Notes under the pieces: generated by a model
Seen by the model: only the letters and a program-made list of their open reading frames with translations
Databases searched by the model: none
Told to the model about the DNA's origin: nothing
Shown here: positions 33,300 through 37,552 of the stretch, piece after piece
Layout of the letters: every line of letters starts with the position of its first letter
Numbering within the stretch: position 1 is the first letter of the stretch
DNA from: Arthrobacter echini
GTDB lineage: Bacteria; Actinomycetota; Actinomycetes; Actinomycetales; Micrococcaceae
Assembly (NCBI RefSeq): GCF_008107445.1
Contig: NZ_VSLD01000003.1
Coordinates: 124,001-188,000 of the forward strand
Direction: 5' to 3'
DNA length: 64,000 nt
Program-made: the position numbers and the translations under genes

Positions 33300-34652
33300 T
33301 CAGTCCAGTCTGGCGCGCCGCGTCTCGGGTGCGTTGAAGGCCATGAAGAGCACGGCGAGGAGAACCAGGCCGCCGATGATCGCGAACGTGAGCGGCAGGC
33401 CCAGGTAGGGCCACAGCAGGGTGCCGAAGATCAGCGGCACCAGACCTGCCCCGATGCGGGAGATGGTCGAGGCCCAGCCGAAGCCGCTCGCCCGGAGTTC
33501 GGTGGGGTACAGCTCCGAGACGTAGGTGTAGAGCACCGGGATGGCCACCTGGACCACGAAGCCGAAGGCCAGCAGCCACGCCGTCGCGACCATCGGCAGG
33601 TCCAGTGTCAGGGCGAAGGCGACCAGGAGGAGGGCGGAGCCCGGCCCGGTGATGGCCAGGAGCCACTTGCGTCCCACACGTTCCACGAGGAGGGCCGCGG
33701 CGACGACGCCGAGGAAGCCCACGCCCGTCATGAAGGTGGTGGTGATGAAGGCGACCGACTGCGCGTAGCCGGAACTGATGAGGATGCGCGGCATCCAGGT
33801 CAGTGCCCCGTAGTACACGAGGAGGATGGTCAGGAACAGGCTCCAGGCCGTCAGGGTGATGCGCCAGTTGTACCGCCACAGTCCTGTGAGCTGGCTCGAG
33901 ACGTTGCCGAGGGACAGCTTGGGGGTCTGTTCCGGATCGGGCAGGCGCCACGCTCGCTGCTCGCCGCCGGTGCGCTCCACGAGCTCGTCGATGACGGCGC
34001 GGGCCTCCTCCGGGCGACCGCGCTGCACGAGGAAGAGGGGGGATTCCGGGACTCCCCGGCGGACCCAGAACACCAGTAGCGCCGGGAGGACCATCACGAG
34101 CATCGCGTACCGCCAGTCACCGGTGGTACCGACGACCGCCGTCGTGACGATGCCGCAGAGGAAGGCGCCGATGGGCCACCACGCGTCCATGGCGGTGAGG
34201 ACGCGGCCGCGCTGGCGCCGCGGGGTGAACTCGCCCACGAGCGCGTAGTCCACGGGGATACAGCCGCCGAGCCCGAAGCCGGCGAGGAACCGGAAGGCGC
34301 AGAACCAGAGGATGTCCGGGGAGAAGGCGCCGAGGACCGTGAAGATGGAGAAGACGAGGAGTGTGAGCGTGAACGCCTTCTTCCTTCCGATCAGATCCGC
34401 CACGGAACCCCACACGAACGCTCCGACGGCCATCCCGATCAGGTTCGACGTCGCGATCCACGCCGCCTGGCCGGGGGAGATGCCCCAGTCGCCGATCAGC
34501 AGGGGGATCAGATAGGCGTTGAGTGTGACGTCCCAGGCATCGAACATGAAGCCGAGACCGCCGATGAGAAAGATCTTGCCCTGGACCTTCCAGCGCCAGG
34601 GGAGCTCCTGGACCACCTGGTCGCCTGTGGGTAGCTGAGTATTGATGCTCAT
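33300..34652 (-). CDS. MFS transporter (sugar/aromatic-acid symporter type)
   Basis: A 450-residue major facilitator with twelve helices in two groups of six. The loop 2-3 motif is GSVADLIGRKKAF, the end of helix 6 has PESPLFLVQRGRPEEARAVIDEL (typical of sugar porters and SV2-like acid:proton symporters), and the second half repeats GxxxxERVGRK. The N-terminal FMFDAWDVTLNAYLIPLL has an Asp pair like that in aromatic-acid symporters (AAHS, DGxD), but the match is not exact. The substrate is therefore a sugar, polyol or organic acid. AAGG lies ahead of ATG 34652. It is divergent from the DUF559 gene. Confidence 0.82.
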   Translation of the reverse strand: MSINTQLPTGDQVVQELPWRWKVQGKIFLIGGLGFMFDAWDVTLNAYLIPLLIGDWGISPGQAAWIATSNLIGMAVGAFVWGSVADLIGRKKAFTLTLLVFSIFTVLGAFSPDILWFCAFRFLAGFGLGGCIPVDYALVGEFTPRRQRGRVLTAMDAWWPIGAFLCGIVTTAVVGTTGDWRYAMLVMVLPALLVFWVRRGVPESPLFLVQRGRPEEARAVIDELVERTGGEQRAWRLPDPEQTPKLSLGNVSSQLTGLWRYNWRITLTAWSLFLTILLVYYGALTWMPRILISSGYAQSVAFITTTFMTGVGFLGVVAAALLVERVGRKWLLAITGPGSALLLVAFALTLDLPMVATAWLLAFGFVVQVAIPVLYTYVSELYPTELRASGFGWASTISRIGAGLVPLIFGTLLWPYLGLPLTFAIIGGLVLLAVLFMAFNAPETRRARLD

Positions 34653-34724
34653 GATGCCTTCGTGAAGGGGCGGGTTCCTGCGAGAACTGTACCGCTGCCA
34701 GGTCCGCTCCTTCTTCCCTCCGCC

Positions 34725-34778
34725 GAGACCGCAGAAATGACTGCGCTTCGGGCTCCGGCCGGGCATATCTGCGATGTC
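34725..34778 (+). repeat. 54-nt palindromic repeat, copy A (degenerate), before the DUF559 gene
   Basis: Starts GAGACCGCAGAAATGAC, identical over 17 bases to copy B, and ends with CTGCGATGTC, a decayed right arm. The centre (CGGGCTCCGGCCGGGCAT) also matches B with few changes. It lies in the gap between the divergent MFS and DUF559 genes in the same orientation as copy B. Confidence 0.7.
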
Positions 34779-34801
34779 GACGCTGAGGGCGGCCGGAGCG
34801 C

Positions 34802-34810
34802 TGTGGACAA
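34802..34810 (-). promoter_or_regulatory. perfect DnaA box upstream of the DUF559 gene
   Basis: TGTGGACAA is the exact complement of TTGTCCACA, the DnaA box of high-GC actinobacteria. It is a single box 36 bp before the DUF559 start and no origin-like cluster surrounds it. Confidence 0.4.
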
Positions 34811-34846
34811 CTCCTCCCACGGGTCCGTGACGCCCACCATGGGTGC

Positions 34847-35797
34847 ATGACGGTCGATCCCCACGCCGAAGGCCTCCTGCGGCTCCACCTCCTGCGGTGC
34901 TTCAGCGTCGAGACGGCTCGTGAGCTCGGGCTGCCCCCTCACGTGATGCGCCGCACCGCATTCAACCGCTCATCGAGGAGCGTCCGTTCGTTCGCCGGGT
35001 CTGCGCCCGAACTGTCCGACGTCGTCGCCTGCCTGAGTGGGCTGGTCCCGGGTACCGTCGCGAGCCACACGACCGCCGCGACGCTCTGGGGGTTGCCGTT
35101 GCCGCGGCAGCCGCTGAAGGCGCCGATCCATCTCACGCGCCCGGCCGGAGCGGCCCACCCCAGGCGGCAGGGGGTCGTCGGACACGTGTCCCGGTTGCGG
35201 GCGGCTGACGTCGTCACCGCCTACGGGGTCCCGCTCACGTCTCCTGCACGGACCTGGTGCGATCTCGCAGCGCAGCTGTCCCTGACGGAGCTCGTCGCGG
35301 CAGGGGATGCGCTCCTTCGGCGTCCTGATGCGCCGCTGCTGCCGGCGGTGATAGTACTGCCGAATCCGCTGGCTGGGTTGCAGGAACTCACGACGACGCT
35401 CGCTTCACGCTCCGGTGCCCGTGGTGTCGCGCTGGCCAGGAAAGCCCTGCCGCTGCTGCGGCCGGGGGTCGACTCGGCGCCCGAGAGCCGACTCCGCCTG
35501 CTCATCGTCGGAGCGGGACTGCCCGAACCGGAGGTGAACGAGTGGATCGTCGACGACAACGGGCGCAGGATCTCCCGCCCGGATCTGCAGTACAGGGCTC
35601 ACAGGCTCGCTCTCGAGTACGAGGGCGAGCACCATCTGACCGATGCCCGACAGTGGGCGCACGACATCGAGCGCGACGAACGCCTGCAGGCCCTGGGGTG
35701 GGCCGTCCTCCGCTTCACGAAGATCCACCTGGGGTCGCGGCGCCAGGAGGCCGTGGCCAGGATCCGGCGGGCGCTGGGGTCACGTGGCCCTGCCTGA
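34847..35797 (+). CDS. DUF559-domain (Vsr/PD-(D/E)xK-like) protein with AbiEi-like N-terminus
   Basis: A 316-residue protein. The C-terminal 85 residues are a DUF559 nuclease-like domain: RPDLQYRAHRLALEYEGEHH (the D...ExE core of PD-(D/E)xK folds) followed by WAHDIERDERLQALGWAVLRFT, typical of this family. The N-terminal 200 residues resemble the winged-helix, AbiEi-antitoxin-like proteins that carry DUF559 in actinobacteria (HTTAATLWGLPLP; VPLTSPARTWCDLAAQLSLTELVAAGD). Biological role unknown; DNA binding and nicking are reasonable. The gene is bracketed by two direct copies of a 55-nt palindrome. ATG 34847 is used; CACCAT six bases ahead may be the -10 of a leaderless transcript. Confidence 0.8.
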   Translation: MTVDPHAEGLLRLHLLRCFSVETARELGLPPHVMRRTAFNRSSRSVRSFAGSAPELSDVVACLSGLVPGTVASHTTAATLWGLPLPRQPLKAPIHLTRPAGAAHPRRQGVVGHVSRLRAADVVTAYGVPLTSPARTWCDLAAQLSLTELVAAGDALLRRPDAPLLPAVIVLPNPLAGLQELTTTLASRSGARGVALARKALPLLRPGVDSAPESRLRLLIVGAGLPEPEVNEWIVDDNGRRISRPDLQYRAHRLALEYEGEHHLTDARQWAHDIERDERLQALGWAVLRFTKIHLGSRRQEAVARIRRALGSRGPA

Positions 35798-35805
35798 GCG
35801 GCGTC

Positions 35806-35860
35806 GAGACCGCAGAAATGACCACGGTCGGGGCCTCCGGTCGGTCATACCTGCGGTCTC
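35806..35860 (+). repeat. 55-nt palindromic repeat, copy B (intact), after the DUF559 gene
   Basis: GAGACCGCAG (35806-35815) and CTGCGGTCTC (35851-35860) are perfect ten-base inverted arms. Inside them TGACC pairs with GGTCA, so most of the element can fold into one long hairpin. It begins nine bases after the DUF559 stop and is followed by a TAGACT -10 for purH, so it may also end the DUF559 transcript. Confidence 0.75.
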
Positions 35861-35890
35861 GGTGCTCGTGGCGACGCGCACCCGCACCGA

Positions 35891-35896
35891 TAGACT
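35891..35896 (+). promoter_or_regulatory. -10 element for purH
   Basis: TAGACT lies 39 bp before the purH GTG, giving a leader of about 33 nt with GGAG near the start codon. It is the only clear -10 between the DUF559 gene and purH. Confidence 0.45.
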
Positions 35897-35935
35897 CGTC
35901 CGAGCCCTAACGACGCCCTATCGACGGAGACCCGC

Positions 35936-37552
35936 GTGAGCCCTGACCATCTCGACCGTGTACCCATCCGCCGAGCCCTGATCTCGGTGTTCGACAAGAC
36001 CGGTCTGGAGGAGCTCGCGCAGGGCCTGCACCGCGCCGGCGTGTCCATCGTCTCCACCGGGTCGACGGCGCGGCGGATCGCCGCCGCCGGCGTGCCCGTG
36101 ATGGAGGTGTCCGAGGTGACGGGGTTCCAGGAGACCCTCGACGGGCGCGTGAAGACCCTCCACCCGGGCGTCCACGCCGGGATCCTCGCCGATCGCCGGC
36201 GCCCCGAGCACGTGGAGCAGCTCACCGAACTGGGCATCGAGGCGTTCGACCTCGTCGTCGTGAATCTCTATCCCTTCGTGGAGACGGTGCGCTCGGGCGC
36301 GGAGCCCGACGCCGTCGTCGAGCAGATTGACATCGGCGGGCCGGCGATGGTCCGCTCCGCAGCGAAGAACCATCCGTCCGTCGCCGTCGTGGTCGATCCG
36401 GCACGGTACGGCGACGTGATCACCGCGGCCGGCGAGGGCGGCTTCGAGCTGGGTGCCCGACGCCGGCTTGCGGCACGCGCGTTCGCGCACACCGCCGCCT
36501 ACGACACGGCGGTGGCCTCCTGGACGGCGGAGCACCTCGACGTGGAGGACGACGCGAGCGGGGAGGGCGTGACCTGGCCGGGCTACGCTGGCCTGGCGCT
36601 GGAGCGCTCAGAAGTGCTGCGGTACGGCGAGAACCCGCACCAGCGGGCGGCCCTCTACGTCGAGAAGGGGGCCACGCCGGGCATCGCCCAGGCGGACCAG
36701 CTCCACGGCAAGGCCCTGAGCTACAACAACGTGGTGGACGCCGATGCGGCCCTCCGCGCCGCTTTCGACTTCGACGAGCCCGCCGTCGCGATCGTCAAGC
36801 ACGCCAATCCGTGCGGCGTCGCCGTCGGCTCGGCCGACGCCCAGGACCCGATCGCGGACGCCCATGCGAAGGCGCACGCCTGCGACCCGGTCTCGGCCTT
36901 CGGCGGGGTGATCGCCGCCAATCGCGAGGTCACCGCCGGCATGGCCGAGACGGTGAAGGACATCTTCACGGAGGTCGTGATCGCGCCGTCGTTCTCCAGC
37001 GAGGCCGTGGAGATCCTCAGCCGAAAGAAGAACATCCGGCTGCTGACCCTTCCCGAGGGCTACGGCCGGAACCCCATGGAGCTCCGTCAGGTTTCCGGGG
37101 GAGTCCTCATGCAGGTCGCGGACACACTGCAGGCCGACGGCGACGACCCACACGCCTGGACCCTCGCCGCGGGCGACGCCGCCGACCACGCCACGCTCGC
37201 CGATCTCGTCTTCGCCTGGAAAGCGTGCCGCGCCGTGAAGTCCAATGCCATCCTCCTGGCCCACGACGGCGCCTCGGTGGGCATCGGCATGGGACAGGTC
37301 AACCGGGTGGATTCCTGCCGCCTCGCCGTCGAGCGGGCCAACACGCTCACCGATTCCGAACGGGCACGCGGCTCCGTGGCCGCCTCGGACGCCTTCTTCC
37401 CCTTCGCCGACGGACTGCAGATCCTGCTCGACGCCGGTGTCCGCGCCGTCGTGCAGCCCGGCGGTTCGGTCCGCGACCAGGAAGTGATCGACGCCGCGAA
37501 CGCGGCGGGAGTGACGCTGTACCTCACCGGGGCACGCCACTTCCACCACTGA
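35936..37552 (+). CDS. purH: bifunctional AICAR transformylase/IMP cyclohydrolase
   Basis: A 538-residue enzyme for the last two steps of IMP synthesis. The N-terminal MGS-like cyclohydrolase half (residues about 10-150) shows [32 protein letters not shown] and [12 protein letters not shown]. The C-terminal transformylase half has the catalytic Lys-His pair in [13 protein letters not shown] and ends with [47 protein letters not shown], the conserved terminus. Start GTG 35936 has GGAG seven bases upstream. It uses the formyl-folate pool also fed by glyA and folD further along. Confidence 0.97.

Follow-up and report, generated by a model that had tools for sequence, protein, structure and literature searches.

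Introduction

In REP/RAYT, the standard example of palindromes linked as a population to one flanking gene, the palindromes carry a GTAG or CGTC tag at the end and occur in tens to over a thousand copies per genome. How abundant they are is reported to depend on the cognate gene, with departures from this ascribed to gene loss (PMC3686654). Excerpts of two further papers describe relevant DNA-binding and nuclease proteins. AbiEi binds two 23-bp inverted repeats with 3 bp between them, and for Rv2827c the repeats within pairs lie 13 bp apart (PMC7319586). The nuclease I-Bth0305I is reported to dimerise on its target, which is nearly 60 bp long (PMC3943268).

Here we describe a predicted nuclease gene that lies between two palindromes in the window, which is the whole 64,000-nucleotide stretch of DNA that was analysed. 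The arrangement recurs in Arthrobacter and other soil bacteria related to it. A sequence-only reading had proposed the locus as a small actinobacterial analogue of REP/RAYT, and our results support this proposal. Three outcomes that would weigh against it were checked (two copies only, no link to further genes of this type, and a gene fixed at one place), and none occurred; the palindromes may move, though slowly. Among the matches listed for openly licensed PMC papers, we found no published description of the system.

Results

Two direct palindromes enclose a predicted AbiEi-like/DUF559 nuclease gene

The gene (34847..35797, plus strand) encodes a 316-residue AbiEi-like/DUF559 protein, with a predicted AbiEi-like DNA-binding part (residues 4-205; 34856..35461, plus strand) and a predicted Vsr-like, EDxHD-type nuclease domain (residues 210-315; 35474..35791, plus strand). 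The DUF559 assignment was upheld at 25.1 bits against a cut-off of 20.6. Downstream of the gene lies copy B of the palindrome, which had been placed at 35806-35860. Its arms GAGACCGCAG/CTGCGGTCTC and inner TGACC/GGTCA pairing were confirmed, and one extra base pair extends the intact element to 57 bp (35805..35861, plus strand; 61.8 bits). Copy A, a member of the same 57-bp family with a decayed right arm, lies upstream (34724..34779, plus strand); its 52.2 bits are among the scores from covariance model R1, which was built with both window copies included. As originally read at 34725-34778, copy A has its first 17 bases and much of its centre in common with copy B, and the two copies face the same way with a single open reading frame between them. 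Folded as single-stranded RNA, copy B (35800-35866) reaches -41.1 kcal/mol (z -5.5), which 0 of 200 shuffles equal, and the decayed hairpin of copy A reaches -24.0 kcal/mol (z -0.6), which 51 of 200 shuffles equal.

The purN-purH neighbourhood was also borne out, with an MFS transporter gene and purH adjoining the gene and purN about 2.6 kb upstream. The 18-mer GAGACCGCAGAAATGACC has 3 matches in the window with up to 3 mismatches, compared to 0.10 expected, and none of 100 shuffles reached 3. Chance repetition is ruled out by these shuffles together with the arm covariation, flank similarity and mismatched-locus comparison given below. Among the purH-linked orthologues (n = 8), dN/dS values of 0.14-0.31 indicate purifying selection.

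The protein joins a DNA-binding part to a homing-type nuclease fold in structure prediction

Structure was predicted from alignment A6, which holds 46 of the 81 proteins compared below. The N-terminal part of the model has the AbiEi fold, and the C-terminal domain has both the Vsr fold and the EDxHD catalytic fold, closest to I-Bth0305I. The model thus suggests an AbiEi-like DNA-binding part joined to a Vsr/I-Bth0305I (EDxHD) homing-type nuclease. Residues E213, D246, H263 and D273 are invariant and in the same order across the 46 rows, and by their order only may correspond to the residues of I-Bth0305I. With an E limit of 1, a PDB sequence search returned 4 matches, of which 3hrl alone fell below 0.01. 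The two best Foldseek matches by E-value were Toxoplasma mitoribosome chains, which were set aside for their low TM-score.

A Pfam search with 7 proteins (E up to 1) gave no HUH (Y1_Tnp) domain, and 5 proteins searched in NCBIfam had no match. Neither a cytosine methyltransferase nor an AbiEii (DUF1814) toxin was present among the four neighbouring proteins scanned, and the gene is directly flanked by MFS and purH. This pair adjoins the gene in 9 of the 30 DUF559 loci compared within the genus.

The palindrome is dispersed in this genome and across the genus

The covariance model gave 18 strand-matches in this genome, a measure that counts most places twice, and these correspond to about 9 places; a core-pattern search located further palindromes on other contigs. 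The element is therefore not confined to the two window copies, and some relatives hold more. Dispersed cognate copies lie close to where other genes end and number roughly 5-20 per genome, which is low for a self-spreading repeat. The consensus of the window's palindrome type begins CGAGA and finishes TCTCG.

At E up to 0.01, the model matched 33 of 38 genomes of the genus. The median was 18 strand-matches in the nine genomes with a purH-linked gene (34, 26, 25, 24, 18, 12, 10 and 9 in the eight besides this one) versus 3 in the 29 without, two of which have no purH match (p = 3e-5, kinship ignored). Many palindromes also occur in three genomes without a relative of the gene (E 1e-5): 20 strand-matches in G010, 18 in G058, whose genome is incomplete (83% complete), and 12 in G002. 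A kinship-corrected test used 3 independent pairs on well-supported branches and gave a mean of 1.7-1.8 in the same direction and about 0 in the opposite one (p = 0.5), too few independent pairs to carry the link between gene and palindromes.

In an alignment of 33 copies, 87.3% of cells are paired, compared to 82.1% after shuffling and 36-49% after sliding. Changes occur on both sides at 11 of 20 pairs, with arm pairing retained. These statistics tilt towards structure because the 33 palindromes were hand-picked from pattern matches and gene flanks.

Matching repeats flank most relatives of the gene

Relatives of the protein are found in 26 of the 38 genus genomes. A scan of named genomes produced 286 relatives, and the best 80 loci, mostly from Micrococcaceae (titles include Agreia and Arenivirga), were retained and compared together with the window gene, making 81 genes. 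We scored flank similarity as the best local alignment between the 350 bases upstream and the 350 bases downstream, with control windows 1050-1400 bases off. The median score was 32 at the 81 genes versus 14 in the distant windows (95th percentile, 20). Similarity exceeded 20 at 69 genes and was not over the control at 12. The 99th percentile of 5958 mismatched up/down comparisons, between loci whose proteins are less than 60% identical, was also 20. When the comparison was to random other loci, related ones included, 3 of 81 genes passed the 99th percentile, because relatives have repeats in common.

Inverted repeats exceeded the control's 95th percentile upstream of 76 of the 81 genes, downstream of 44, on both sides of 41 and on either side of 79; since the loci are related, flank counts are not independent. 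An association with other genes of the same kind had been anticipated, and it is found here as matching repeats on both sides of 69 of 81 genes and an inverted repeat on at least one side of 79. Two of the 81 genes contain an in-frame stop, at L200:2462-3394 (codon 59) and L209:2309-3262 (codon 29, with the start as chosen), and the genome of L200 retains 40 matches to its palindrome type.

The suggested link to DUF559 genes holds for relatives of this protein and does not extend to DUF559 in general. We fetched 30 loci from the wider class and analysed 29 with a rough choice of open reading frame; 8 of these 29 had flank similarity above 20, which leaves a general DUF559 property unsupported. 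Because the underlying search missed the window's own gene at its E-value limit, this set samples other subfamilies and says little on the range of the subfamily. Four of its loci, L265, L277, L260 and L273, had up/down scores of 53, 36, 34 and 32 with this rough choice, and so the arrangement may extend past Micrococcaceae.

Each protein goes with its own palindrome

Repeats from the 69 loci passing the flank test were typed by single linkage and fell into 31 types, 22 of them seen once. For pairwise comparison of the same loci, two stop-containing proteins were retained with the stops masked as X. At protein identities of 70% or more, 157 of 187 pairs had the repeat in common; at 60-70% identity 1 of 53 pairs did, and below 60% 0 of 2106.

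Whole-genome searches with three other repeat types gave the same picture; matches here are arms, and an intact palindrome can therefore give two. Type ATTGCTCCGTAACTGCC (2 mismatches) had 9-28 matches in all 8 genomes with the matching gene and 0-2 in 11 others, and a reversed-pattern control gave 0-3. Type GAGTTGGCATTTAATGACA (2 mismatches) had 40 and 17 matches in the 2 matching genomes, 3 in one other and 0 in 16. Type GCGCGAACTGGCAGCTAATG (3 mismatches) had 36-39 matches in all 5 matching genomes and 0-2 in 6 others. Genome G060 carries two of these systems, and both palindrome sets are present. Together, these results give strong support to a cognate pairing of protein and palindrome.

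A DnaA-box-like site lies upstream of most of the genes

The window gene is preceded by a DnaA-box-like site, TTGTCCACA (34802..34810, minus strand), which reads TGTGGACAA in the gene's direction and starts 45 bp 5' of the start codon. This TGTGGATAAC box is one of 2 exact TTRTCCACA matches in the 64-kb window. The 180 bases preceding the gene contain TTRTCCACA with up to 1 mismatch at 75 of the 81 genes, and the match is exact at 59. Orientation is the same for 71 of 78 sites, which mostly lie 45-49 or 60-75 bases 5' of the start. Controls gave 1 of 81 downstream, 5 of 79 and 2 of 81 at distant positions, and 1-6 of 81 in five shuffles. Upstream sites were found at 6 of the 29 class-wide DUF559 loci, at scattered positions. 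The dnaN locus of this genome contains 3 exact TTATCCACA, and the sequence suggests that DnaA may act at the upstream box.

We also observed that palindromes lie closer to dnaN than a uniform distribution predicts in G063, G270 and G002 (one-sided KS p = 0.0028, 0.018 and 0.014), with clusters merged within 10 kb and an incomplete list for G002. This proximity is only a lead, because G063 and G002 had prompted the idea, the G002 list is incomplete, and G270 is the sole independent test.

Dispersed palindromes tend to avoid divergent promoters, and gene presence is patchy

We examined the placement of 19 dispersed palindromes, namely L219 and 18 of the 47 places from the sister-species comparison, with strand assigned from a small codon-usage score. 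The genes on either side are convergent at 11 sites, tandem at 8 and divergent at 0. The strand score was below 0.10 on at least one side at L218, L223, L226, L237, L238, L242 and L247, and the stop distance at L218 is also inconsistent; without these seven sites the counts are 7, 5 and 0. L226 and L242 are orthologous, and L223 and L237 may be.

The possibility of a gene fixed at one place did not hold up. Among 30 purH loci fetched, the gene is present in 9, MFS stands next to purH without the gene in 18, and neither lies within the fetched 1.5 kb in 3. On the purH tree, gene presence needs 6 changes on the best tree, and at least 3 are forced by well-supported branches. The sister genome G010 has about 2.2 kb of other genes at the gene's place between MFS and purH (L241:9070-11285), which by eye look like genes for a luciferase-like monooxygenase and for a flavin reductase. 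At L092 and L099, inspection by eye showed a lone, different palindrome between MFS and purH, with the gene absent there. Because the spacer has diverged, the purH insertion boundary and any target duplication are not definable by eye.

G010 lacks the gene and has a counterpart of all 7 palindrome sites fetched from outside the window in this genome; one of these, L219, falls below the model threshold in this genome. Most of the palindromes compared are common to sister species, indicating that turnover is slow. G005 and G027 differ at two sites: the L246:641-697 palindrome has no equivalent at L250:2265-2270, where the flanks are 92-94% identical, and a second copy at L243:8909 is absent in L251. 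These indels could be deletions, and neither a target-site duplication nor an exact insertion boundary was definable at the presence/absence sites. Palindromes compared with their flanks in 7 sister pairs gave a mixed result (79-96% identical versus 72-99%), the single striking case being L219/L225, with a palindrome 86% identical and flanks 98-99% identical.

Some palindromes bracket other genes. In G005, two enclose a pair of small genes (L246:8892-9821), by eye an ArsR-like regulator and an AHSA1-like protein, and in G027 sequence like this cargo lies between palindromes together with an MFS-like gene (L250:9110-11474). The same site has one palindrome and no such cargo in G000 and G010, and two close palindromes in G016. 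At L229:8317-9033 in G016, a 238-aa open reading frame lies between two palindromes; G000 and G010 each have one palindrome at this place.

Of 72,556 plasmid records, 3 contain relatives of the protein, and all 3 are from Arthrobacter. Among 50,697 phage records there was 1 match, in a faecal contig of 6.7 kb, and the 17 pattern matches in viral contigs included no confirmed relative. The three large plasmid records (NZ_CP012477.1, NZ_AP024649.1 and NZ_AP024648.1) carry relatives 38-41% identical. On these few matches in plasmid, phage and viral collections, a phage or plasmid origin was rejected.

Discussion

We think it reasonably probable that the locus is a two-part repeat system, in which a sequence-specific nuclease works with a cognate palindrome of about 57 bp that flanks its gene and is dispersed through the genome. 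Two protein monomers would probably occupy the two arms of about 20 bp, as AbiEi and Rv2827c do on paired 23-bp inverted repeats. The nuclease domains could nick or cleave the palindrome itself, DNA close to it or a hairpin that it forms in replication, and repair or replication would then spread, convert or re-form palindromes, sometimes taking the gene along. The DnaA box by the promoter may couple expression to DnaA. Binding, cutting, control by DnaA and the nuclease as the cause of spread or mobilisation are steps that we infer, and we regard nuclease-driven spread as an evenly balanced proposition. Several observations weigh against this reading: the low copy number, palindromes in G010, G002 and G058 despite the lack of a related gene, counterparts in G010 of all 7 sites fetched from outside the window, 12 of 81 genes with no flank similarity above control, and a downstream inverted repeat at only 44 of 81. 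A host function of the palindromes is possible.

We judge it unlikely that the system represents domesticated chromosome maintenance, in which the cell would bind or process the palindromes as fixed sites, for example at forks or in the origin region, inherited vertically and immobile, with DnaA controlling the nuclease as an enzyme of the host. The orthology of most compared palindromes between sister species, purifying selection on the gene, DnaA-box-like sites upstream of 75 of 81 genes, and palindromes closer to dnaN in three genomes, with G270 alone independent, favour such a role. However, the repeat type is wholly different between proteins less than 60% identical, two systems coexist within G060, and the gene's own two-sided flanking is left unexplained. 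The 6 changes in presence at purH, at least 3 of them on well-supported branches, and the empty purH sites also argue against maintenance.

A free-standing homing endonuclease would cut sites lacking the element, and repair would copy the gene with its palindromes, leaving dispersed palindromes as footprints. We consider this doubtful. The nuclease domain is nearest to I-Bth0305I, for which excerpts report a dimer target of nearly 60 bp (PMC3943268), and purH sites are both filled and empty. Yet the empty purH spacers contain no obvious uninterrupted target by eye, palindromes are far more numerous than gene-bearing units, and it is the palindrome that tracks the protein.

There is a small chance that the protein is an autoregulated AbiEi-type repressor whose operators are the palindromes, with dispersed copies as a regulon or residues. 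The same repeat is also downstream of most genes, none of the 19 dispersed copies scored stands between divergent genes, and the DNA-binding part is fused to a nuclease fold in which E, D, H and D are invariant; these features count against a repressor even though one palindrome is upstream of the gene and the repeat layout of AbiEi and Rv2827c, as given in excerpts, is much like the 57-bp palindromes (PMC7319586). Ordinary bidirectional transcription terminators repeated by chance are scarcely credible, for the strong GC-rich hairpin often lies shortly past stop codons and between convergent genes but is also upstream of the gene, there are 0 terminator-like sites with a T-run in 34600-36000, and palindromes are abundant only with the cognate gene, which sets aside the simpler initial reading as a terminator or attenuator hairpin.

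Returning to the two-part repeat system, we tentatively propose a more specific form that we hold with less than even confidence: a class independent of REP/RAYT, built on an EDxHD nuclease that acts as a dimer, is guided by its AbiEi part and is switched by DnaA when replication initiates. This nuclease would recognise, re-form and spread the 57-bp palindrome that belongs to it, occasionally together with its gene or neighbouring cargo, to gene ends, preferentially near the origin, with specificity re-set as the protein diverges. If true, this would be a repeat-mobilising system of a new class in bacteria, independent of REP/RAYT. The family offers a natural panel for the specificity of an AbiEi-type DNA reader fused to a homing-type nuclease. 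It also points to a likely function of one DUF559 subfamily, and the possible connection of DnaA with a repeat-associated nuclease lends itself to testing.

Several known systems share parts with this one. Unlike the EDxHD homing nuclease I-Bth0305I, the protein is encoded outside an intron or intein, has an AbiEi-like DNA-binding part and is accompanied by dispersed palindromes. It differs from the Vsr repair endonuclease in its added AbiEi-like part, its palindromes and the lack of a methylase among the four neighbours scanned. Compared to the type IV antitoxins AbiEi and Rv2827c, there is no AbiEii among the neighbours scanned, a nuclease is carried, and the sites are two-sided and dispersed. 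The system stands apart from known families because, for each family considered, a defining feature is either absent here or beyond computation.

The resemblance to REP/RAYT lies in a gene flanked by palindromes (flank similarity at 69 of 81 genes, inverted repeats on both sides at 41 of 81) and in dispersed extragenic cognate copies whose abundance goes with the cognate gene. In contrast to REP/RAYT, the enzyme is an AbiEi plus Vsr-like nuclease with no match to an HUH/Y1 transposase, the palindrome is 57 bp with arms of about 20 bp and no GTAG or CGTC end tag, and copies number roughly 5-20 rather than tens to over a thousand. By layout alone, the system could also count as a REP/RAYT variant. 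On present evidence we consider that it operates like REP/RAYT and is not a member, since a defining feature, the HUH transposase, had no Pfam match in the 7 proteins searched. From this comparison it resembles REP/RAYT built from unrelated parts and looks separately evolved, with an unrelated enzyme in actinobacteria that has the REP/RAYT layout and about 31 repeat types tracking the protein.
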